The notes beneath the pieces were generated by a model, which saw nothing but the letters and a program-made list of their open reading frames with translations, was not told the DNA's origin and ran no database searches. From Streptomyces canus (GTDB lineage Bacteria > Actinomycetota > Actinomycetes > Streptomycetales > Streptomycetaceae), in contig NZ_CP107989.1 of assembly GCF_041435015.1 (NCBI RefSeq), forward strand, positions 7,068,001 through 7,132,000: DNA of 64,000 bases, written 5' to 3'. How positions within the stretch are numbered: the first letter of the stretch is position 1; each line of letters starts with the position of its first letter. Position numbers and translations under genes: made by a program. Shown here piece after piece: positions 34,744 to 44,459 of this stretch.

Positions 34744-36369
34744 TTGGCTGTGCGACATGACCCCGAACTGCTCGCCGCCGCCCGGTACTTCGGGCGGCGC
34801 CGCTTTCTCACGGTCACCGCGGCGGCCGCCGCTCTCGCGTTCAGCACCCAACTGCCGGCCCGGGGCGCGGCGGGCTCCACCGAACTCGACTCGGCGAGGA
34901 TGGCCAGCGATCCGTTCACCCTCGGCGTCGCCTCCGGGGACCCGCTGCCCGACTCCGTGCTGCTGTGGACCCGGCTCGCCCCCGCCCCGTTCGAGCCGGA
35001 CGGCGGGCTGCCCCAGCAGTACGTCACCGTCCAGTGGGAGATGGCCCTCGACGAGCGCTTCAGTGCTCCTGTCCGCAGCGGCGTCGACATCGCCTACGCC
35101 GAGTACCACCACACCCTGCACGTCGACGTCGCGGGCCTCGAGCCCGACCGTGTCTACTACTACCGGTTCAAGACCGGAACATGGATCAGCGAGACGGGCC
35201 GTACGCGCACGGCGCCGGCCACCACCACCGCCGCCGCGTCGCTGTCCTACGCCGCCGTCTCCTGCCAGGCCTACCACGACGGGTACTACACGGTGCACCG
35301 CCATCTCGCCCAGGACGACGTCGACGTGGTCTTCCACCTCGGCGACTACCTGTACGAGTACGCCGTGAACGCCACGGGCGGCCAGCGCGCCTACACCGAC
35401 CGCAAGCTGCCCGCCCTCTTCAACCGGGAGGCCATGACCCTGGAGGACTACCGGCTGCGCTACGCGCTCTACAAGAGCGATCCGGACCTGCGGGCGGCCC
35501 ACGCCGCGCACCCCTTCGTGGTCACCTGGGACGACCATGAGACCGAGAACAACTACGCGGGCGCCATCAGCGAGAACGACGATCCTCCGGAGGTGTTCCT
35601 GCTGCGTCGCGCCGCCGCCTACCGGGCGTACTGGGAGAACCAGCCGCTGCGCGGCGCGCAGTTGCCGAACGGTCCCGACGCGCGGCTCTACCGCCGGCTC
35701 CAGTGGGGCACCCTCGCCCAGTTCGACATCCTCGACACCCGGCAGTACCGCTCCGACCAGGTGTACGCGTCCACCAAGCACTCCGGCGGTCCGCTCCAGG
35801 ACGACCCGACGCGCACCATGACCGGGGCGGCGCAGGAGAGCTGGCTCATCGACGGCTGGCGTGACTCACAGGCCCTGTGGAACGTGATGCCGCAACAGGT
35901 CTGCTTCTCGCAGCGCAAACTCGACCTCACGTCGGAGCCCATGATGTCCATGGATGCCTGGGACGGCTACCGGGCCTCGCGCCGCAGGATCCTCGACGGC
36001 GCGAAATCGGCCGGGGTCGAGAACCTGGTGGTGATGACCGGGGACGTGCACGCCGGCTACGCCTTCGACATCAAGGACGACTTCGACGACCCGGCCTCCA
36101 GAACCCTGGGCACGGAGTTCACCGCCACGTCGGTCGCGAGCGGACGGGACGGCGCCGACCGGCCCCCCACCTGGGAGACGTATCTCAAGGCCAACCCGCA
36201 TCTCAAGTTCTACAACGGGCGCCGCGGCTATGTGAGGGTCACGCTCGACCGGCAGCAGGCGCAGGCCGACTTCAGGACCGTGTCCGCCGTGACCAAGCCG
36301 GGTGCGCCGATCACCACCGCCGCGTCCTTCGTGACGCAGGCCGGCAACCCGGGCCTCCAGCCCGTCTGA
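34744..36369 (+). CDS. phoD: Secreted alkaline phosphatase/phosphodiesterase, PhoD family
   Basis: Tat-exported phosphodiesterase, 541 residues. The twin-arginine signal is GRRRFLTVTAAAAALAFSTQ, cut near LPARGAAG. The metal-binding motifs of the PhoD domain appear in order: SYAAVSCQAYHDGYYTVHRH, FHLGDYLYEY, VTWDDHETENNYAG and VVMTGDVHAGYAF. The start is uncertain: TTG 34744 has GGGGGGA about 6 bp upstream, and GTG 34750 is possible. PhoD enzymes are usually controlled by PhoP in Streptomyces, but I found no convincing PHO box. A second PhoD-like enzyme without a signal is at 59836. Confidence 0.92.
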   Translation: MAVRHDPELLAAARYFGRRRFLTVTAAAAALAFSTQLPARGAAGSTELDSARMASDPFTLGVASGDPLPDSVLLWTRLAPAPFEPDGGLPQQYVTVQWEMALDERFSAPVRSGVDIAYAEYHHTLHVDVAGLEPDRVYYYRFKTGTWISETGRTRTAPATTTAAASLSYAAVSCQAYHDGYYTVHRHLAQDDVDVVFHLGDYLYEYAVNATGGQRAYTDRKLPALFNREAMTLEDYRLRYALYKSDPDLRAAHAAHPFVVTWDDHETENNYAGAISENDDPPEVFLLRRAAAYRAYWENQPLRGAQLPNGPDARLYRRLQWGTLAQFDILDTRQYRSDQVYASTKHSGGPLQDDPTRTMTGAAQESWLIDGWRDSQALWNVMPQQVCFSQRKLDLTSEPMMSMDAWDGYRASRRRILDGAKSAGVENLVVMTGDVHAGYAFDIKDDFDDPASRTLGTEFTATSVASGRDGADRPPTWETYLKANPHLKFYNGRRGYVRVTLDRQQAQADFRTVSAVTKPGAPITTAASFVTQAGNPGLQPV

Positions 36370-36546
36370 GGAACTGCCGGGCACCGCTAGCCGGTGTGAC
36401 GGCCCGTCGGCATCCCGTGCTCCGCCGGGCGGCCCTTTCTTGTCGTCCGATGCGTGGAACGGGCAGGAAGCGGACATTGTCCGTCCGGTTATCGGCAAAA
36501 CCTAGGGATTCGAGACCTTTTGTACTCACACCCGAGGAGATGCCTG

Positions 36547-37911
36547 ATGGTCCACAGACACGCTTCGGCCGGCTGTGCCGCGTTGACGCTGCTCAGTGCC
36601 CTCGTGCTCACGGGGCTGCCCGCGGCCGCGGCCGTCGAGCCCCCCGCGCCGACGCCGGCGCCCTCCGCCGCCGAGATGCTCGGCGCGAACAAACCCTCGC
36701 CCGCGGTCCTGCGGGCGCTGAAGCGTGATCTGCGCCTGACCGAGGATCAGGCCAGGACGCGCCTGGTCAACGAGGCCGAGGCGGGCACGCGCGCGGGCCG
36801 CCTCCAGAACGCGCTGGGCAAGCGCTTCGCGGGAGCGTGGGTGAGCGGAGCCACCTCCGCGGACCTGACGGTGGCGACCACCGACGCCGCGGACAGCCCC
36901 GCCATCGAGGCCGGTGGAGCGCGGGCAGTGGTCGTCAGGACTCCGCTGCAGGACCTGAAGGCCGCCAAGGCGAAGCTGGACGCTTCCGTGACCGGCGAGG
37001 CCCTGGACACGCCGGTCCGGTACATCGACGTACGGACCAACCGGGTGACGGTGCAGGCGAAGAGCCGCGCCGCCGCCGACACGCTCATCGCGGCCGCCCA
37101 CGTCGACAGCGCGATCGTGGACGTCAAGGTGTCGGCCGACCAGCCGCGCGCCCTGTACGACATCCGGGGCGGTGACGCCTTCTACATCGACGGCACGGCC
37201 CGCTGTTCCGTGGGATTCGGCGTCACCAAGGGCGACCAGCAGGGGTTCGCGACGGCCGGCCACTGCGGGAAGGCGGGGGCGAAGACCACCGGGTACAACC
37301 AGGTCGCCCAGGGCACCTTCCAGGCATCCGTCTTCCCCGGGAAGGACATGGCCTGGGTGGGCGTCAACAGTGACTGGACCGCCACGCCCGCCGTCAAGGG
37401 CGAGGGCGGTCAGAACGTGCAGACCGCCGGCTCGGTGCAGGCCCTGACGGGTGCCTCGGTGTGCCGGTCCGGTTCCACCAGCGGCTGGCACTGCGGCACG
37501 ATCGAGCAGCACGACACGAGCGTCACCTACGCCGAGGGCACCATCGACGGCGTGACCCGTACGACGGTGTGCGCGGAGCCGGGCGACTCCGGTGGCCCGT
37601 ACATCTCGGGAGCCCAGGCCCAGGGCGTCACGTCCGGGGGCTCCGGCGACTGCACGAGCGGCGGAACGACCTTCTACCAGCCGATCAATCCGCTGCTCAG
37701 CACCTACGGCCTCACTCTCAGGACAAGCACCGGCCAGAGCGGCACCACCGCCCCCGAGGACGGTCAGAGTGGTGGCTGGGCCGCGGGTCAGGTGTACGAG
37801 GTGGGCGCGCGGGTGACCCTCGACGGCGTCTCCTACGAGTGCCTCCAGCCCCATCAGGCGCAGGCCGCGTGGCAGCCGGCCCTCGCTCCGGCCCTGTGGC
37901 AGCGCGTCTGA
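36547..37911 (+). CDS. Streptogrisin-type serine endopeptidase with chitin-binding-like domain
   Basis: Secreted chymotrypsin-fold protease (family S1E) made as a preproenzyme of 454 residues. The signal peptide is about 1-29, and a folding propeptide (about 30-205) has the alpha-lytic type pattern and ends before DIRGGDAF. The catalytic triad is His239 (TAGHCGK), Asp267 (GKDMAWVG) and Ser348 (PGDSGGPY). Residues 408-454 are a CBM5/12-type module (GGWAAGQVYEVGARVTLDGV, WQPALAPALWQRV), as in streptogrisin C. The ATG has a GAGGAG site. It probably degrades proteins bound to chitinous material. Confidence 0.94.
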   Translation: MVHRHASAGCAALTLLSALVLTGLPAAAAVEPPAPTPAPSAAEMLGANKPSPAVLRALKRDLRLTEDQARTRLVNEAEAGTRAGRLQNALGKRFAGAWVSGATSADLTVATTDAADSPAIEAGGARAVVVRTPLQDLKAAKAKLDASVTGEALDTPVRYIDVRTNRVTVQAKSRAAADTLIAAAHVDSAIVDVKVSADQPRALYDIRGGDAFYIDGTARCSVGFGVTKGDQQGFATAGHCGKAGAKTTGYNQVAQGTFQASVFPGKDMAWVGVNSDWTATPAVKGEGGQNVQTAGSVQALTGASVCRSGSTSGWHCGTIEQHDTSVTYAEGTIDGVTRTTVCAEPGDSGGPYISGAQAQGVTSGGSGDCTSGGTTFYQPINPLLSTYGLTLRTSTGQSGTTAPEDGQSGGWAAGQVYEVGARVTLDGVSYECLQPHQAQAAWQPALAPALWQRV

Positions 37912-37951
37912 GGACGCGGTGACGTCGGCGATGCCGGAGCTCGTCGGCCCA

Positions 37952-39046
37952 CTACATCTCTGCCAGCAGGGTGTACGCGGTCGGCACGAAGGCATCGCCG
38001 GCGCGGAAACGGCGGGTGCACATGGCGGCCAACGCCGTTCCGATGTCGGGCCGGAATCCCAGGAAGGCCTGCTGACCGAGTGTCGCCCCGCCGTGGAAGT
38101 ACATCGGACCGCGCTGCGTGGGGTGCTGGAACCACGCCACCGTGTGCACATGCCGGTGTCCGAGGCCGCGCCGGAGCACAGGGCGGCGTACCGCGCGCAG
38201 CGCAGCGGTCAGCGGTCCGCCCGACGGATCCAGATGTGCTTCCAGGAACGTGAGCAGATCGTGCGGGCCGGCCCGGACGGCGCCGGCCGCCTGGAAGCCG
38301 CCGACGGTCAGTGGTGGAACGGGCGTGGTGCCGTCCTTGCGGTGCCCGGTGGCGTCGGTGTCCGGGCCGCCGGGGGTGAGGGTGGCGTCGCGCAGCCGGA
38401 GCGGCTCCAGCACCTGACCGGTGAGCAGTTCGTCCCACGGGGTGGCGGTCGCCGCCGTCAGGGCGTGACCGAGGACGGCGACACCGAAGTTGGAGTAGTG
38501 CCAGCGGGTGCCGGGCCGGTGGCGTTGCCGGTGGCGCAGAAAGGCGTCGACCACGCGCTCGGCCGGATAGCGGGCGTAGGGGTTGGTCCGCCACGCCGGC
38601 AGCGCCCGGACGAAGAAGTCGGCGGGCAGGGCGGGCAGTCCGGAGGTGTGGGTGATCAGGTGGGCGAGGGTGACGGGATCCTCGCCGGGCCGCCGAGCCG
38701 GATCCAGCAGGGCGGCGGCGGGCTCGCCCGCGGACAGCCGGCCCGTCTGGGTCAGATGGGCCAGCAGCAGTCCGGTGAACGTCTTGGAGGCCGAGCCCAT
38801 TTCGTAGCGCAGCTGATCGCGGGGGACGGGCGGGGCTGGCGCGCTGCCCCCGGTGCGCACGGTGCGGCGACCGTACCGGGAGAGGGCGAAGACGACGTCG
38901 GGCGCGTGCACGGCGTCGACGGCCTCGTCGAGCCGCTGCCGCACCGCCTCGTCGTCGCCGGGTGCCTCCCGCCACGTCACGCCGGTGACGTCGAGCGGGT
39001 CGCCCGGCCAGGGGGCGGGGCGCGCAGGGCGTGCGCCGACTGTCAT
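37952..39046 (-). CDS. Beta-lactamase-fold serine hydrolase of the peptide/DUF6895 operon
   Basis: Class C-type serine hydrolase, 364 residues. The SxxK motif is in MGSASKTFTGLLL, the YxN motif in WHYSNFGVAVLG and an HGG in MYFHGGATLGQ. There is no signal peptide, so it probably acts inside the cell. It starts inside the stop of the upstream DUF6895 gene (ATGA, 39043-39046) and is the last gene of a tightly coupled operon. If the small peptide is a precursor, this enzyme could be its peptidase or esterase. That is inference from context only. Confidence 0.9.
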   Translation of the reverse strand: MTVGARPARPAPWPGDPLDVTGVTWREAPGDDEAVRQRLDEAVDAVHAPDVVFALSRYGRRTVRTGGSAPAPPVPRDQLRYEMGSASKTFTGLLLAHLTQTGRLSAGEPAAALLDPARRPGEDPVTLAHLITHTSGLPALPADFFVRALPAWRTNPYARYPAERVVDAFLRHRQRHRPGTRWHYSNFGVAVLGHALTAATATPWDELLTGQVLEPLRLRDATLTPGGPDTDATGHRKDGTTPVPPLTVGGFQAAGAVRAGPHDLLTFLEAHLDPSGGPLTAALRAVRRPVLRRGLGHRHVHTVAWFQHPTQRGPMYFHGGATLGQQAFLGFRPDIGTALAAMCTRRFRAGDAFVPTAYTLLAEM

Positions 39047-39963
39047 GACGGTGTGTGCGCCAGCCGCGTCAGGGCGCGGGACGTGGCCAGGACGGAGGCG
39101 AAGGCGGCGACCAGCGTCGGGTGGTAGACGACGTCGAAGACCTCGTCGGGTGCGCCCTGCGGCATCGTGCGCACGGCGGGCATCGCGCCGTCGGGCTGCT
39201 GGGCGGCGGCGAAGCCTTCCCATGCCCGCTCGTCGAACGTGGGGCGGGGCAGACAGGCGTCGACGACGAGCAGTTCACCGAGCAGGTCCCAGCGTTGCAG
39301 GTCGAGCCAGTCGTCCAGCCAGGCCGGCAGCCAGTCCGCGAGGTAGTCGGCGACCTCGGCCGGCAGACCGTCGGGGTTCTCTCCCCAGTCGGTGAGATGG
39401 AAGACGGTGTGGGTGATGTCGTAGGCGATGTGCCCTTCCACGGTCCAGGGTTCGGGTGCACGCCCCAGCCACGTCGCGCCGACGACGTCGGCCTCCGGGA
39501 CCCGGGGCGCCAGGCCGAAGCGGCGCTGGAAGGCGGACAGGCCCAGGCGCCGGACCGGTGACATCTCCAGGGCGGCGTAGCTGTCCAGCCGCTGGTTGAG
39601 CTGGAAGGCCCGCTCGGCCTCGGGGCTGCTGTAGCCCAGCTCCTTGAAGGGCAGGTACACCTCGAAGGGGATGGGCGAGAGGGGTTCGGTGTGCTGCCCG
39701 TGCACCAGCATCCGGCCGCCGTCCAGGGTGTGGCGCCAGGCGTGGTCGATCAACTGCCGTGCCAGCGCGGCCTGTCGGGACCCCGCCACGCCCTCGCGGA
39801 ACAGCACCTTGCAGATGAGCGCCAGTTCGCCGACCGGTTTGAAGCGTTCCAGGAAGCCGACCTCCGGGTCGGCGTCCAACTCCAGCCGGAATCCGTCGCG
39901 GTGGGCGTGCAGCCACTCGAGAGCACCGACCCCGACGTTGTGGATGAGGCGCGTGTCGTTCAT
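39043..39963 (-). CDS. DUF6895-type protein (paralogue B)
   Basis: Unknown function, 306 residues, mostly helical, without signal or membrane segments. It aligns by eye with the preceding gene: WLHAHRDGFRLE, FKPVGELALICK, FEVYLPFKELGYSS, GRAPEPWTVEGHIAYDITHT followed by VFHLTDWGENP, and YHPTLVAAFASVLA. The conserved TH-x-x-FHLTDWG stretch is the best candidate active or binding site. Overlaps both neighbours by 4 bp. Function may need both paralogues, given their fixed coupling. Confidence 0.82.
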   Translation of the reverse strand: MNDTRLIHNVGVGALEWLHAHRDGFRLELDADPEVGFLERFKPVGELALICKVLFREGVAGSRQAALARQLIDHAWRHTLDGGRMLVHGQHTEPLSPIPFEVYLPFKELGYSSPEAERAFQLNQRLDSYAALEMSPVRRLGLSAFQRRFGLAPRVPEADVVGATWLGRAPEPWTVEGHIAYDITHTVFHLTDWGENPDGLPAEVADYLADWLPAWLDDWLDLQRWDLLGELLVVDACLPRPTFDERAWEGFAAAQQPDGAMPAVRTMPQGAPDEVFDVVYHPTLVAAFASVLATSRALTRLAHTPS

Positions 39964-40937
39964 CCCGGCACTCCCTGTCCGCCGTCCGCCGCGAAGGCCT
40001 CCGCGTCCCCGGCCGCCTCGCGCAGCCGGTTGACGGTCAGCACGGCGGCGAAGGCCGTCATCAGTGTCGAGTGGTAACAGTCGATGAAGTCGGGTGCGGT
40101 CGTACGGCCGCCCCGGCCGCCCACCTCCGGGACGGCGCCCGAGTCGTGCTGCGCGACCGACAGTCTCGCCCAGGCCTCCTGGAACAGAGCGCGGTCCGGC
40201 GGGCCGGGCAGACTGCTCGCCACGGCCAGCAGTTCGCAGCTCAGGTCCCACTGCTCGTCCTCCAGACAGGTGTCGAGCCAGGGCGCGAGCCAGTGCCGGA
40301 GGTAGGCCGCGACCGGTGGGGGTACGGCCTGCGGGGTCAGGCCCCAGTCGGTGAGATGGAAGATCACATGGGTGAGCGTGTAGCCGGCGGCCAGCTCGAA
40401 CGTCCACGGCTCCGGCAGACCGGCGAGCCAGGTGCGGCCCAGTGCCCGCGGCATGTCCTCGTGTTCCGGGAGGCCGCTGCGGCGCTCGGAGTTGAGCACG
40501 CTCAGGCGTCGGTTCGGTTCCTGCTCCGTCAGGTGCCAGCCGCGGGTCCGGGCCACCGTCGCGGTGGCGCTCTCGTAGCCGGCGTGGCGCAGGCCCGCCG
40601 ACGCGAACGCCGCGTAGATCTCCAGCGGATAGGTCGCGAAGGGTTCGAGCCGCTGCAACTCCACGAAGAGGGCGCCGCGTTCGGTCTGTTGCCACGCGAA
40701 CGACAGCAGGTCCGACGCCAGCACGTGGAGCGGGTCGGCCGGATCGGTGTGCCGTCGTACACAGACGCACACCTGGGCCAGCTCGCCGAAGGGCTTCCAG
40801 GTGGTGTTCACGTTGCCGTGCTCGGCGAGCGCGTCGTCGCCGAGCGCGAATCCCTCGCGGTGGGCGGACACCCAGGCCAACGCGGCCGCGCCCAGAGCCC
40901 GGACCTCGCGCGTCGCCGGGACCTCGTGGCCCGTCAC
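39960..40937 (-). CDS. DUF6895-type protein (paralogue A)
   Basis: Paralogue of the next gene, 325 residues. Shared motifs are WVSAHREGFALG, WKPFGELAQVCV, LEIYAAFASAGLRHA, GLPEPWTFELAAGYTLTHVI followed by FHLTDWGLTP, and YHSTLMTAFAAVL. It is slightly longer at the C-terminus, with extra alanine-rich helix. The GTG start (VTGHEVPATREV) overlaps the upstream stop in GTGA (40934-40937), and its own stop overlaps the next start in ATGA. No enzyme family was recognised beyond the DUF. Confidence 0.8.
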   Translation of the reverse strand: MTGHEVPATREVRALGAAALAWVSAHREGFALGDDALAEHGNVNTTWKPFGELAQVCVCVRRHTDPADPLHVLASDLLSFAWQQTERGALFVELQRLEPFATYPLEIYAAFASAGLRHAGYESATATVARTRGWHLTEQEPNRRLSVLNSERRSGLPEHEDMPRALGRTWLAGLPEPWTFELAAGYTLTHVIFHLTDWGLTPQAVPPPVAAYLRHWLAPWLDTCLEDEQWDLSCELLAVASSLPGPPDRALFQEAWARLSVAQHDSGAVPEVGGRGGRTTAPDFIDCYHSTLMTAFAAVLTVNRLREAAGDAEAFAADGGQGVPG

Positions 40938-41647
40938 ACCGGCACTCCGGCGCGCATCAGTTGAGCGGCCTCGACCTGGAACGCCACGCGGGCGTCCGCG
41001 CCGCCCATCTGCGCCACGAACTCCAGCCCGGTGTCCAGGCCCAGCGTCTGCGGCACCTCGTCGAGGAGGACCAGCCAGCGTCCCGCTCCGGCTGCCTGGA
41101 GCCAGTCGCGGCGGCGGACCGCCCGGACGAATCCCCGGGCGACGTCGACCGGGCGGCGGCGCGCCGCACGGGCCACCGCGCTGTCCTCGCCGGGGAGCGC
41201 GAGCGGGGCGAGCACCGCGAGTTGGTGGGTCAGGAACTGCCACGGCGCGTCGTCGAGCCAGGACGCCTCGGGCTCGGTGTCGTCGCCCGACGCGCCGTCG
41301 AGGGACGCGTCCAGCCGCAGGAGCGCCCGTCGCATGGCCCAATGGCTCCACATCGAGGTGGGAGGGGCTCCGGCGGGTGGTGGGTAGGCGTGTACGGCCC
41401 TGCTGAACACGGCGAGATCGTCCGATGTCGGGGGCGCGCAGCGCAGCAGGACGCTCGGCAGGACGACATCGGCTCCGACCACCCGTACGGCGGCGAGGGC
41501 CGGGTCGGCGGTCGCCCCGGGGCCGTTGCCCTGCGCGACCGTGCCCGCGAGCCGGAAACGGTCCCCGCTCCGAAGAGCGGAGACCAGTTCCGACATGAGG
41601 CCCTGCACCGCGCCCGCGAGGCGGGTCGAAGTGCCTGACTGCTCCAT
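40934..41647 (-). CDS. Unknown protein of the peptide/DUF6895 operon
   Basis: 237 residues with no family I recognise. The start ATG 41647 (MEQSGTSTRLAGAVQGLMSE) follows the small peptide gene by 13 bp. Visible stretches are ADVVLPSVLLRCAPPTSDDL, AVFSRAVHAYPPPAGAPPTS and, near the end, AGRWLVLLDEVPQTLGLDTG. It looks soluble and mainly helical. Its stop overlaps the DUF6895 paralogue A start. Position directly after the peptide suggests it handles or binds the peptide, but that is inference. Confidence 0.72.
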   Translation of the reverse strand: MEQSGTSTRLAGAVQGLMSELVSALRSGDRFRLAGTVAQGNGPGATADPALAAVRVVGADVVLPSVLLRCAPPTSDDLAVFSRAVHAYPPPAGAPPTSMWSHWAMRRALLRLDASLDGASGDDTEPEASWLDDAPWQFLTHQLAVLAPLALPGEDSAVARAARRRPVDVARGFVRAVRRRDWLQAAGAGRWLVLLDEVPQTLGLDTGLEFVAQMGGADARVAFQVEAAQLMRAGVPV

Positions 41648-41660
41648 TCGGGTTCTCCCG

Positions 41661-41849
41661 TCAGCCCTTCTTCGGCCGTGGCGTCGGAGGCGAGAGGAGG
41701 AGTTGGCTCGACGACGACACCAGAGCGAGCGCCGCGCACTGGCGGCTGTCGCGGTAGTAGCCGTCGGCCTCGACCGGGTCGAGAGCCGCTTCGACGTCGA
41801 TGCCGGGTGCGTCGGTGAGGTCGTCGAGCAGGAACTCGGGGGAAGACAT
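41661..41849 (-). CDS. 62-residue acidic peptide, candidate precursor or small signal
   Basis: First gene of a five-gene operon. Residues 1-30 are acidic (MSSPEFLLDDLTDAPGIDVE, then AALDPVEADG) and look like a leader. A YYRDSRQC stretch with the only cysteine (Cys38) follows, then a hydrophobic Ser/Leu segment and the basic tail PPTPRPKKG. The ATG at 41849 has a strong AAGGAG site and a good promoter 60-90 bp upstream. The layout resembles RiPP precursors, but no known RiPP class enzyme is nearby. It could also be a structural or regulatory small protein. Confidence 0.65.
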   Translation of the reverse strand: MSSPEFLLDDLTDAPGIDVEAALDPVEADGYYRDSRQCAALALVSSSSQLLLSPPTPRPKKG

Positions 41850-41907
41850 ACCACCATCTCCTTTATGAGAGGTATGTGGGTCTCATTCCATGTCACCCCA
41901 TTCGAGC

Positions 41908-41959
41908 GATCTATGCAAAAGAGGGAGATTTGTCTATCTCGTGCGAGATTCAATCTCCC
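41908..41959 (-). promoter_or_regulatory. Promoter of the peptide operon under nested palindromes
   Basis: Read on the minus strand, a -35 TAGACA (41936-41931), a 17-bp spacer and a -10 TAGATC (41913-41908) form a good promoter. It is overlapped by a palindrome ATCTCG-TG-CGAGAT (41936-41949) inside a wider inverted repeat GGGAGATT/AATCTCCC (41923-41930/41952-41959). The area is markedly less GC-rich than its surroundings. The palindromes cover the -35 box, which suggests repression by a dimeric regulator. Confidence 0.6.
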
Positions 41960-41989
41960 GCTCGCGAGTGGATGACGAGTGACGCACTC

Positions 41990-43363
41990 TCAGTGCGAGC
42001 CCCCGCGCTCCTCGCGGATCTGCGAGACCACCCGCGCCACGGTCTGCCGTACCGCTTCCGTCTCGGTGAGGAAGTGCCAGTAGTCGGGGTGGCGGCCCTC
42101 CAGGGTGGCGATCGCCCGGTCCAGGCGGGCCACGGAGTCGTCCAACGGGCGTGCGTGCCTGGGGTCGGGGGTGTTGCGGCCGCTCATGGCGAGGCGTTGG
42201 GCGTCGCGGAGGGCGAAGCGGGTGCGGTCGATCTCCTGCTGGGGGTCCTTCTGCACGGCGTTCAGCCGGCGCAGCCGGTCGCCGGCGGCGGAGACGGACT
42301 CGTCGGTGGTGTTGAGCAGGGCGCGGACCGTGGAGAGCAGGGAGGTCGCGTCCGGCCAGCGCTGCTCGTCCCGCGCGGCGCGGGCCTCGCGGAGTTTCCG
42401 CTCGGCCTGCCGTACGTTCTCCGTGGCCTGGTCCGGGACGTGCTGGAGGTCCTGCCAGCAGGCGGCCGTGAAGCGGCGGCGCAGTTCGCTGAGAACCGGG
42501 TCGACCTGGCCCGCGCGGGTGGTCAGGGCCTCGGCGCGGGTGCGCAGGGAGACGAGCCGGTGGTCGATCTCCGCGGCCCGCTCCGGCAGCCGCTCGGCCT
42601 CCACCCGGATCGACTCGGCCTCCCGCGCGACCCGTTCGGCCCGCTCCAGTGTCTGCGGCACGCCATGCTGTCCCGCGCCCTGGTTGAGCTTGGTCAGTTC
42701 GGGGCCGAGGGCGGCGAGCCGGGCGGCGAGGTCGTCCGCCTTCAGCCCCGACTTCCGTACGGCGTCCAGGGCGTTGGAGGCGGCCAGCAGCCCCTGCCGG
42801 GCCCGCTCGACGGCCGGGGCGAGGCGGGCGAGCTGGGTCTCGGCCTTGCCGAGCAGCGGCCCGAGGCTGTCGCCGAAACGGTCCAGCTCCCGCTTGACGT
42901 TGCCGAGGTCGTCCTTGGCCCGGGTGAGCTCGGTACGCGCGTGTGCGGCGACCGAGGCCTCCAGGTCGTCCCGGTCGAGGTCGTGGGCGTCGACGGCCTC
43001 GATGTAGCGCTGACTGGCCTCGTCGATCCGCCCGCTGACCGCCTGGAAGTCGGCGACCGCCCGCCGGGCGGCGGGGGAGTCGTCGACGGCCCTGATGGTC
43101 TCGATCGAGATCCGCAGATCCCGCTGGGCGGTGTCCAGTTCGTAGAACGCGGCGGCGGCGGCGTCCTTCGCGGCCTGCGCCTCGGCCCGCTGGCTCTCCG
43201 CCCGTCCGCCGAACCAGCGCCGGGTGCCGCCGCCGGCGAACGAGGCCGGCAGCGCGAGGGCGGCGAGCAGAGGCAGACCGACGAGGGTGAGGGTGTCCTT
43301 GAGCGCCTGGCGGTGTGCGCGCGGCACCGACGACGAGTACGGCTGCGATGGTGTCGCCGTCAC
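41990..43363 (-). CDS. Membrane-anchored coiled-coil protein
   Basis: Unknown function, 457 residues. A hydrophobic segment near the N-terminus (about 25-44, LTLVGLPLLAALALPASFAG) anchors a long, almost wholly helical domain (about 55-400) with heptad patterns rich in Ala, Glu, Arg and Leu, such as RAERVAREAESIRVEAERLP. A globular end contains YWHFLTETEAVRQTVARVVS. It could be a surface-facing or cytoplasmic scaffold. The GTG start has a GGGAGAGGG site. It is not coupled to the peptide operon, whose promoter region separates them. Confidence 0.82.
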   Translation of the reverse strand: MTATPSQPYSSSVPRAHRQALKDTLTLVGLPLLAALALPASFAGGGTRRWFGGRAESQRAEAQAAKDAAAAAFYELDTAQRDLRISIETIRAVDDSPAARRAVADFQAVSGRIDEASQRYIEAVDAHDLDRDDLEASVAAHARTELTRAKDDLGNVKRELDRFGDSLGPLLGKAETQLARLAPAVERARQGLLAASNALDAVRKSGLKADDLAARLAALGPELTKLNQGAGQHGVPQTLERAERVAREAESIRVEAERLPERAAEIDHRLVSLRTRAEALTTRAGQVDPVLSELRRRFTAACWQDLQHVPDQATENVRQAERKLREARAARDEQRWPDATSLLSTVRALLNTTDESVSAAGDRLRRLNAVQKDPQQEIDRTRFALRDAQRLAMSGRNTPDPRHARPLDDSVARLDRAIATLEGRHPDYWHFLTETEAVRQTVARVVSQIREERGGSH

Positions 43364-43443
43364 ATCCCTCTCCCGTGCTGTGTTCCGTCCTGGCGGTGCC
43401 CGGTGTCATTCTCCCACCGGTAAGGGACGAACACACGGGCCGG

Positions 43444-44214
43444 TTAGTTCGCGGTTCGCACCGTGACCTTCCCGTCTCCGCTCTGGGCGGACACCACGTG
43501 GTCGCTGGAGTCGGACCGGGGCACCGACACATCGACCCCTCCGTCGCCGGTTTTGGTGTCCACGCGGTAGGTGGCCTTCGGCAGCTCGACGGTCACGGAG
43601 CCGTCGCCGCTGCGGGTCTCCACCCGGTCCGGTACGGCACCGAGTTCGAGATGGAGCGAGCCGTCCCCGGTACGGGCGGTGATGCGGCGGGAGGTGACGT
43701 CCGCCCTCATGGAGCCGTCGCCGGTGTGCAGCTCCAGCGGCCCGCTGGAGTCGGTGACCCGCACGGAACCGTCACCGGTGCTGATGCTCAGCGGCCGGGT
43801 GAACCCCCGGGCCCGCACACTGCCGTCGCCGTCCTGGACCTTCACGCCGATGTCCCGCGGCACCTCGATGCGGTGCTTGGCCGCGCAGTCGGCCACGACA
43901 CCGCTGCACTTCATGCGCAGCACCAGCCGGTCGTCCTTCATCGACCAGGTCACCTCGGGGTCCTTGCCGAGGGCGACGGTCCCCTGGAACCAGCGGGTGA
44001 CCTCGATCGTGCCCGCCTTGTTCGAATCGGCGGCGACGATCTCCAGCGCCGAGTCGTCGGAGTCGACGGTGAGGGTGCGGCCGTGGAGGGCGAAGGACTT
44101 GTGGTCGGGGGTCTTGTCGTCCCCGGCGGAGGCGCCGCAGGCGGTGGCCCCCGCGACGACGAGCGCGACGACTCCGGCCGCGGCGGCGGCACGTACGGGA
44201 ACGGAACGGACCAT
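43444..44214 (-). CDS. DUF4097-type lipoprotein with seven GDG repeats
   Basis: Exported protein of 256 residues. The signal ends at Cys26 in a lipobox-like ATAC, followed by GASAGDD. The C-terminal half carries seven GDG-x-hydrophobic turns (GDGSVRA, GDGSVRV, GDGSMRA, GDGSLHL, GDGSVTV, GDGGVDV, GDGKVTV), each one turn of a beta-solenoid as in DUF4097 proteins. Function is unknown; such proteins may be surface adhesins or modulators. The ATG has GGGGGAG upstream. Confidence 0.85.
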   Translation of the reverse strand: MVRSVPVRAAAAAGVVALVVAGATACGASAGDDKTPDHKSFALHGRTLTVDSDDSALEIVAADSNKAGTIEVTRWFQGTVALGKDPEVTWSMKDDRLVLRMKCSGVVADCAAKHRIEVPRDIGVKVQDGDGSVRARGFTRPLSISTGDGSVRVTDSSGPLELHTGDGSMRADVTSRRITARTGDGSLHLELGAVPDRVETRSGDGSVTVELPKATYRVDTKTGDGGVDVSVPRSDSSDHVVSAQSGDGKVTVRTAN

Positions 44215-44352
44215 GATGATCTCCCCCTGATCTAGCCCTGGACGGGCGATCGCGGGCAGTCCGCGACCCTGCTTCGACCCTAGGGACCGGGGCTCCCGCG
44301 GGGGATCCGGGTCGCTCCCGGATCGAGGGTGGGGTTTTCCCCCGTATCAACC

Positions 44353-44394
44353 CTGACTCCTGCCTGACTCCTGCACTGACTCCTGCACTGAGTC
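44353..44394. repeat. 12-bp tandem repeat upstream of tRNA-Val
   Basis: The unit CTGACTCCTGCA repeats with an 11-bp first copy (44353-44363), two full copies (44364-44387) and a partial fourth (44388-44394). It lies in the 245-bp gap between the DUF4097 gene and the tRNA and is non-coding. Confidence 0.7.
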
Positions 44395-44459
44395 GGCCGG
44401 GCCCCGGCCAAGGGTTTGCAGGACAGGGTCCCGGGCAGGGTAGGCTGTCGACTCGTCTC

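Follow-up and report, generated by a model that had tools for sequence, protein, structure and literature searches.

A conserved five-gene cassette of Streptomyces combining a candidate precursor peptide, paired DUF6895 proteins and an S12 hydrolase

A stretch of 64,000 nucleotides from Streptomyces canus, hereafter the window (assembly GCF_041435015.1, contig NZ_CP107989.1, positions 7,068,001-7,132,000, forward strand), carries on its minus strand five genes which have been studied as a possible unit for making a ribosomally synthesised and post-translationally modified peptide (RiPP). In order, these encode a candidate precursor peptide of 62 residues (41661-41849), recognised as an open reading frame and by its conservation; P0002, a predicted all-helical protein of 237 residues without named family (40934-41647); DUF6895-1 (325 residues, GTG start, 39960-40937) and DUF6895-2 (306 residues, 39043-39963), both candidate peptide epimerases, matched by Pfam PF21836 at 8.6e-87 and 9.7e-84, respectively; and an S12 (beta-lactamase-fold) serine hydrolase of 364 residues (37952-39046; PF00144, 6.2e-48), a candidate D-stereospecific peptidase. 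The first-pass annotation had described a one-strand layout of five genes with one 13-bp gap and three 4-bp overlaps, and coordinates and sequence confirm it: 13 bp separate the peptide gene from that of P0002, followed by the overlaps GTGA, ATGA and ATGA. In the region upstream of the peptide (41850-41989, minus strand), comparison with relatives marked a Shine-Dalgarno sequence, AAGGAGATGGTGGT, and the string ATTGAA. The cassette as a whole, irrespective of strand, spans 37925-41914, its limits being set by an empty site in a close relative (see below). The NCBIfam search returned no family for the peptide, P0002, DUF6895-1 or DUF6895-2, and 45 families for the S12 hydrolase, of which the 25 listed all lay under their cut-offs.

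The best 80 of 173 relatives found in reference genomes were fetched, and these loci therefore lean towards the window's kind; their genes were predicted with a simple in-house script instead of a standard caller. The order peptide, P0002, DUF6895, DUF6895, S12 was kept in 68 of the 80 loci, and the three junctions with 4-bp overlaps were found in 67, 67 and 63 of these 68, an arrangement far beyond chance. One of the ordered loci, L048, was counted although its DUF6895-1 gene is split over two frames. Seven of the other 12 stop at contig ends (L006, L018, L026, L033, L049, L057, L059), L035 has the hydrolase, only clustered apart, the genes of L037, L040 and L054 are broken up, and in L027 the peptide and a shortened P0002 remain after loss of the hydrolase and both DUF6895 genes. 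Apparent decay of the cassette was observed in L027, L037, L040, L048, L054 and L148; the system therefore seems to be lost at times.

Co-occurrence was followed in 150 sampled Streptomyces genomes. The peptide was found within 2.5 kb of all 46 tandem DUF6895 pairs, among which G421 and G500 have the second DUF6895 gene in pieces; tandem DUF6895 pairs lacking the peptide gene, the case that the first-pass annotation had named as damaging to its proposal, were thus not encountered (0 of 46). Likewise, 47 of 50 peptide matches adjoined a DUF6895 pair, one of the remaining three lying at a contig end beside one DUF6895 gene and two being marginal (~7e-4). At E <= 0.001 the peptide was matched in 49 of the 150 genomes (47 strong matches and the two marginal ones), and its conservation, also queried earlier, extends past close relatives. 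The limits of the unit were revealed by the genome of the close relative, G528, where window positions 36349-37924 and 41915-44421 align to adjacent DNA with 11 bp between them. The 3,990 bp of the window that are missing there correspond exactly to the five cassette genes. We conclude that the five genes form one conserved cassette.

Comparison of the peptide genes revealed a variable region at residues 1-17, a conserved DPxExDGxYRDSR[QE]CAALAL at 24-43, a hypervariable hexamer at 44-49 and a near-invariant LLLSPPTPRPKKG at 50-62. The ratios of nonsynonymous to synonymous substitution rates (dN/dS) for 99 distinct genes were 1.15 (1-17), 0.22 (18-43), 1.19 (44-49) and 0.08 (50-62), these values being averages over all pairs of the 99 genes, taken without a tree and with the hexamer gapped in nine rows. 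P54, P57, R58, P59 and K60 are identical in all 99 genes. The single Cys38 that had been picked out from the sequence is present and is kept in 98 of the 99, and the basic tail reported with it is real, belonging to the near-invariant LLSPPTPRPKK ending. Several divergent relatives have an unbroken hydrophobic run in place of the hexamer, e.g. RDTRECGGGLLLAALLLISPPTPRPKTETK (L136). Among 101 distinct 220-bp upstream regions, the Shine-Dalgarno sequence GGAGATG was observed in 80 and TGTTGAA in 48; where relatives show this recurrent TGTTGAA-type motif, the window reads ATTGAA. Small open reading frames are common in high-GC DNA and the peptide is without a database family (none was matched in Pfam), as might be expected if the frame were a chance product or an annotation artefact. 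Against this stand the codon-level purifying selection over the 99 distinct genes, the conserved Shine-Dalgarno sequence and the co-occurrence in 46 of 46 cases, and the probability of an artefact is negligible. Evidently, the peptide is a real gene under codon-level selection.

The two DUF6895 paralogues match PF21836 over the whole domain with 291.6 and 281.6 bits, the cut-off being 23.8, and both contain the motif THxxFHLTDWG, as the first-pass annotation had noted. In DUF6895-1, K48, E52 and H190 were found in all 92 distinct cassettes and D197, D231, E235 and H289 in 91; in DUF6895-2, K42, E46, H185, D226, E230 and H281 were found in all 92 and D192 in 82. Structure models were made for DUF6895-2 and P0002. 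The DUF6895-2 model (predicted local distance difference test, pLDDT, 91.3) is almost wholly helical and forms a helical barrel, the fold of which matches sugar 2-epimerases and other enzymes. A DUF6895 lasso-peptide epimerase is named in the title of Shi et al. (ACS Catal. 2026, 16, 1757), cited in PMC13352647; going by that title, the published enzyme belongs to the same Pfam family, PF21836, as the window paralogues.

The same 150 genomes contained 44 other DUF6895 sites, all of which were fetched except G477 C114 and G499. Single-DUF6895 cassettes were observed at 15 fetched loci with a different peptide of 55-67 residues, its tail LLLLSPKEPKEP-like or EPKEPK-like, and P0002-like and S12 genes were present in 15 of 15. 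A profile of these single-type peptides matched 17 of the 150 genomes; 15 of the matches lie beside a single DUF6895 gene, one is on a separate contig (the DUF6895 contig of that genome measures 3.5 kb) and one is marginal (3.1e-4). L113 and L119 are single-DUF6895 loci with yet another peptide. When 40 DUF6895 proteins were placed on a tree, the window-type paralogues (A1 and A2) grouped with the single type (B) in one clade (100/99). A1 (96/97), A2 (100/100) and B (99/94) are each one-sided, and the tree does not resolve the order of their branching; this topology is consistent with a single duplication after which the genes were inherited together.

DUF6895 genes were also found beside RiPP enzymes of other kinds. 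In L131, DUF6895 stands with Transglut_core3 and Asn_synthase in a lasso-type cluster, and this protein keeps the same seven K/E/H/D/D/E/H residues as both window paralogues. The L131 cluster (L131:4760-10299) comprises a 39-residue precursor candidate, a transglutaminase-like protease, an Asn-synthase-like cyclase, a 105-residue protein without Pfam match, DUF6895 and a flavin adenine dinucleotide (FAD) hydroxylase; a protein search with its DUF6895 returned eight proteins, itself included. L130 is of lanthipeptide type, with Lant_dehydr, LANC_like and a gallidermin/FDLD-type precursor, and the neighbours in L129, which is broken off by a contig end, match those of L130. Seven spaced DUF6895 pairs (L122-L128) are arranged around a radical S-adenosylmethionine (SAM) protein, together with a 38-42-residue peptide, a prolyl oligopeptidase, a glycosyltransferase-like gene (sub-threshold in Pfam) and a transporter-like gene (putative major facilitator superfamily); the domains were assigned in L123, where the radical SAM protein is closest to SPASM RiPP maturases, under their cut-offs. 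The peptide of these clusters is short and acidic with a Cys-x-x-Asn-containing stretch at its end, and L122-L125 have a second, divergent radical SAM gene upstream, the L123 copy of which has the peptide epimerase YydG as its best, sub-threshold match. It is possible that L122-L128 represent a second new RiPP type.

Fused or divergent DUF6895 proteins with a peptide of 65-86 residues containing an SGLL..LT..QL-like stretch were found in L108, L116, L134, L132 and the Bacillota plasmid L157. The fusion proteins of L108 and L134 have 544 and 562 residues, L116 likewise encodes a long fusion, and in all three a conserved small protein of 65-72 residues precedes the fusion. On L157, a Pseudalkalibacillus plasmid, DUF6895 directly follows an 86-residue peptide gene (L157:5362-6633), and upstream of it lie a gene for a small membrane peptide and SpoIIM and ATP-binding cassette (ABC) genes. 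L104 was without a recognisable peptide, G411 C169, G477 C114 and G499 represent fragments or marginal cases, and L121 and L150 lie at contig ends. The occurrence in lasso-type, lanthipeptide and radical-SAM-maturase-type clusters shows that DUF6895 is a RiPP-associated family. The first-pass annotation had proposed a precursor processed by unknown enzymes; the part concerning a precursor and its modifying enzymes gains support from DUF6895 in RiPP clusters, while the word unknown no longer suits a family for which an epimerase is cited, if only by title.

In the cassette of the window a precursor-like gene lies beside enzyme genes and is inherited with them, as seen from the 46 of 46 pairs, the empty site of five genes and the selection on the peptide. 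The cassette is therefore very probably a RiPP-type unit, and the peptide would be the substrate of the cassette enzymes. A different reading takes the peptide for a small permanent subunit or regulator, the enzymes acting on another molecule. Such a role would explain the almost invariant ending (dN/dS 0.08), which is unusual in a RiPP core, and would agree with the five proteins showing no known-type RiPP leader protease and no exporter in Pfam. Nevertheless, we regard it as improbable, as a fast-evolving hexamer (dN/dS 1.19) lies between the conserved parts, different small peptides occupy the same place in other DUF6895 clades, and it is the small peptide that serves as substrate in genuine RiPP clusters.

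The remaining two proteins were considered as partners in a RiPP-type unit. P0002 has a single, sub-threshold Pfam match (E 0.29), its model consists of helices only, and none of the five cassette proteins gave a Pfam match to PqqD, the type of RiPP recognition element that has a winged-helix domain with beta-strands; P0002 may act as a substrate-binding or scaffold partner. The S12 hydrolase carries the motifs S85xxK88, Y184SN186 and H318xG320. S85 and K88 were found in all 80 type A and all 19 type B S12 sequences, Y184 in all 99, and N186 in 79 of 80 type A and 17 of 19 type B sequences. Its best match among solved structures is Pab87/CubicO (2qmi), a D-peptide-specific peptidase. The earlier statement that no established leader peptidase is nearby needs qualifying, as the S12 hydrolase of the cassette is itself a candidate peptidase. 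Whether such a peptidase would serve maturation has to be weighed against self-protection or salvage, in which it would degrade the D-residue product in the cytosol. Pab87 degrades D-amino-acid peptides, the cassette holds no other candidate immunity gene, and the S12 protein has no long hydrophobic segment marking export (best 19-residue hydropathy 0.85), all of which would suit protection. On the other hand, translational coupling of the gene in type A cassettes, its occurrence in type B cassettes as well, and the prolyl oligopeptidase that the spaced-pair clusters have in its place fit a processing role. Self-protection is accordingly given a limited chance, and maturation is preferred.

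With the S12 enzyme as a maturation peptidase, the following course can be proposed. The 62-residue peptide would be the precursor, its conserved middle and SPPTPRPKK ending serving as recognition elements, and the part modified would be the hydrophobic stretch after Cys38, which is ALAL-hexamer-LLL here and an unbroken Leu/Ala run in several divergent relatives. Helical P0002 would present the substrate. The two DUF6895 enzymes, as cofactor-independent acid/base peptide epimerases with alpha/alpha barrels, would convert chosen L-residues of the stretch to D-residues, each perhaps being responsible for one site or phase. The S12 hydrolase would then cleave at a D-residue, by which the product is released or unwanted epimers are removed. 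DUF6895 might, in place of this, catalyse a cyclisation, an elimination, a hydrolysis or some other alpha/alpha-barrel reaction within a RiPP cassette, or modification might fall to one paralogue, with the other only binding the substrate. The helical barrel fold, matching sugar 2-epimerases and other enzymes alike, has been described above; the sole DUF6895 function cited is epimerisation, as given in a title, and all seven residues are shared between the two window paralogues and the lasso-type protein of L131, and so we hold other chemistry to be unlikely. Epimerisation by DUF6895 with D-specific cleavage by the S12 enzyme is the reading we moderately favour. The wider proposition, a widespread undescribed Streptomycetaceae RiPP class modified by D-residues only, which paired cofactor-free DUF6895 epimerases would introduce into a hydrophobic stretch, with a D-stereospecific S12 enzyme acting only on correctly epimerised precursor, is put forward as a plausible but tentative one; such a class would be a radical-SAM-free counterpart of the epipeptides.

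Several known systems resemble the cassette in part. Lasso systems have a transglutaminase-like leader protease and an Asn-synthase-like cyclase, both present in L131, whereas neither was found among the five window proteins; the cassette is not a lasso system, and in comparison with the DUF6895 lasso epimerase it has two DUF6895 genes, P0002 and the S12 hydrolase. The epipeptide system YydF/YydG of Bacillus subtilis is described in PMC7026026 as a small peptide in a compact operon, with the conversion of L- to D-residues as sole modification; its epimerase is of the radical SAM type, and a membrane protease and an ABC transporter are also employed. The cassette is similar in outline, having a small peptide, a compact operon and a putative L- to D-conversion, but Pfam revealed no radical SAM domain, membrane protease or ABC transporter among the five cassette proteins. 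As it is without radical SAM epimerase and transporter, the cassette is not a member of the epipeptide family. According to PMC10406935, MslH, the epimerase of the lasso peptide MS-271, performs radical-free acid/base epimerisation in RiPP tailoring with a calcineurin-like fold and Ca(II). The chemistry proposed here for the cassette would be of the same radical-free acid/base kind; the fold predicted for DUF6895-2, in contrast to the calcineurin-like alpha/beta fold of MslH, is a barrel made almost entirely of helices. Pab87/CubicO (2qmi) is presented in PMC2651629 as an S12 D-stereospecific peptidase, and ClbP in PMC9889268 as a membrane-bound S12 peptidase that activates a non-ribosomal prodrug. 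The window hydrolase shares SxxK and YxN motifs with Pab87/CubicO, ClbP and DD-carboxypeptidases, its best sequence matches among solved structures, but differs from ClbP in having no obvious membrane segment and in being coupled to a ribosomal peptide gene. By the features tested, the two paralogues belong to PF21836 and the hydrolase to the S12 family. The literature search returned no description of the cassette and none of the peptide strings, and DUF6895 appeared only in the title of a reference; the absence from print is claimed for this search alone.

The cassette is carried by about one third of the sampled Streptomyces genomes (47 of 150 by strong peptide match), and about one half have some DUF6895 (73 of 150, 72 of them above the Pfam cut-off). 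Among public proteins 191 peptide relatives were found, and the genus-named ones among the best 120 of the 191 were all from Streptomyces. DUF6895 was above cut-off in 6 of 396 genomes (236 genera) sampled phylum-wide, all 6 in the window's genus, and was present in 107 of 200 genomes and 11 of 17 genera of the window's family. If the proposed reading is true, a common peptide product that has no name and needs only a handful of components has escaped notice, and DUF6895 would be a general RiPP enzyme family and not a lasso speciality. The epimerase and the S12 peptidase would then constitute a compact, probably oxygen-tolerant route to make and cut D-residue peptides.

Two observations concern copy number and location. 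In G401 (C8:468236-468810) the peptide gene occurs twice, upstream of one cassette. The Streptomyces megaplasmids NZ_CP108841.1 and NZ_CP023408.1 have DUF6895-2 matches of 79% and 78% identity, in two places each; the cassette is therefore probably able to sit on plasmids. A mobile element as carrier was considered and rejected, as the repeats listed included none conspicuous as a terminal repeat at the ends of the cassette.

The next gene, convergent with the cassette, encodes a secreted S1-type protease (36547-37911) and holds this position in 64 of the 67 intact-order loci with a next gene called. Its membership was rejected: the best protease match lies away from the cassette in at least 11 cassette-bearing genomes, being 0.36-1.2 Mb off on the same contig in G459, G413, G536, G171 and G400 and on another contig in G503, G107, G515, G514, G525 and G465, and the protease is still present in G528, which is without the cassette. 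As the flanks in G528 align without the five genes, this protease and the gene upstream of the cassette are neighbours and not members; the protease is an old neighbour. G528 further lacks most of an alkaline-phosphatase-like gene (34750-36369; missing part, window 34825-36348), a second presence/absence difference in that genome.

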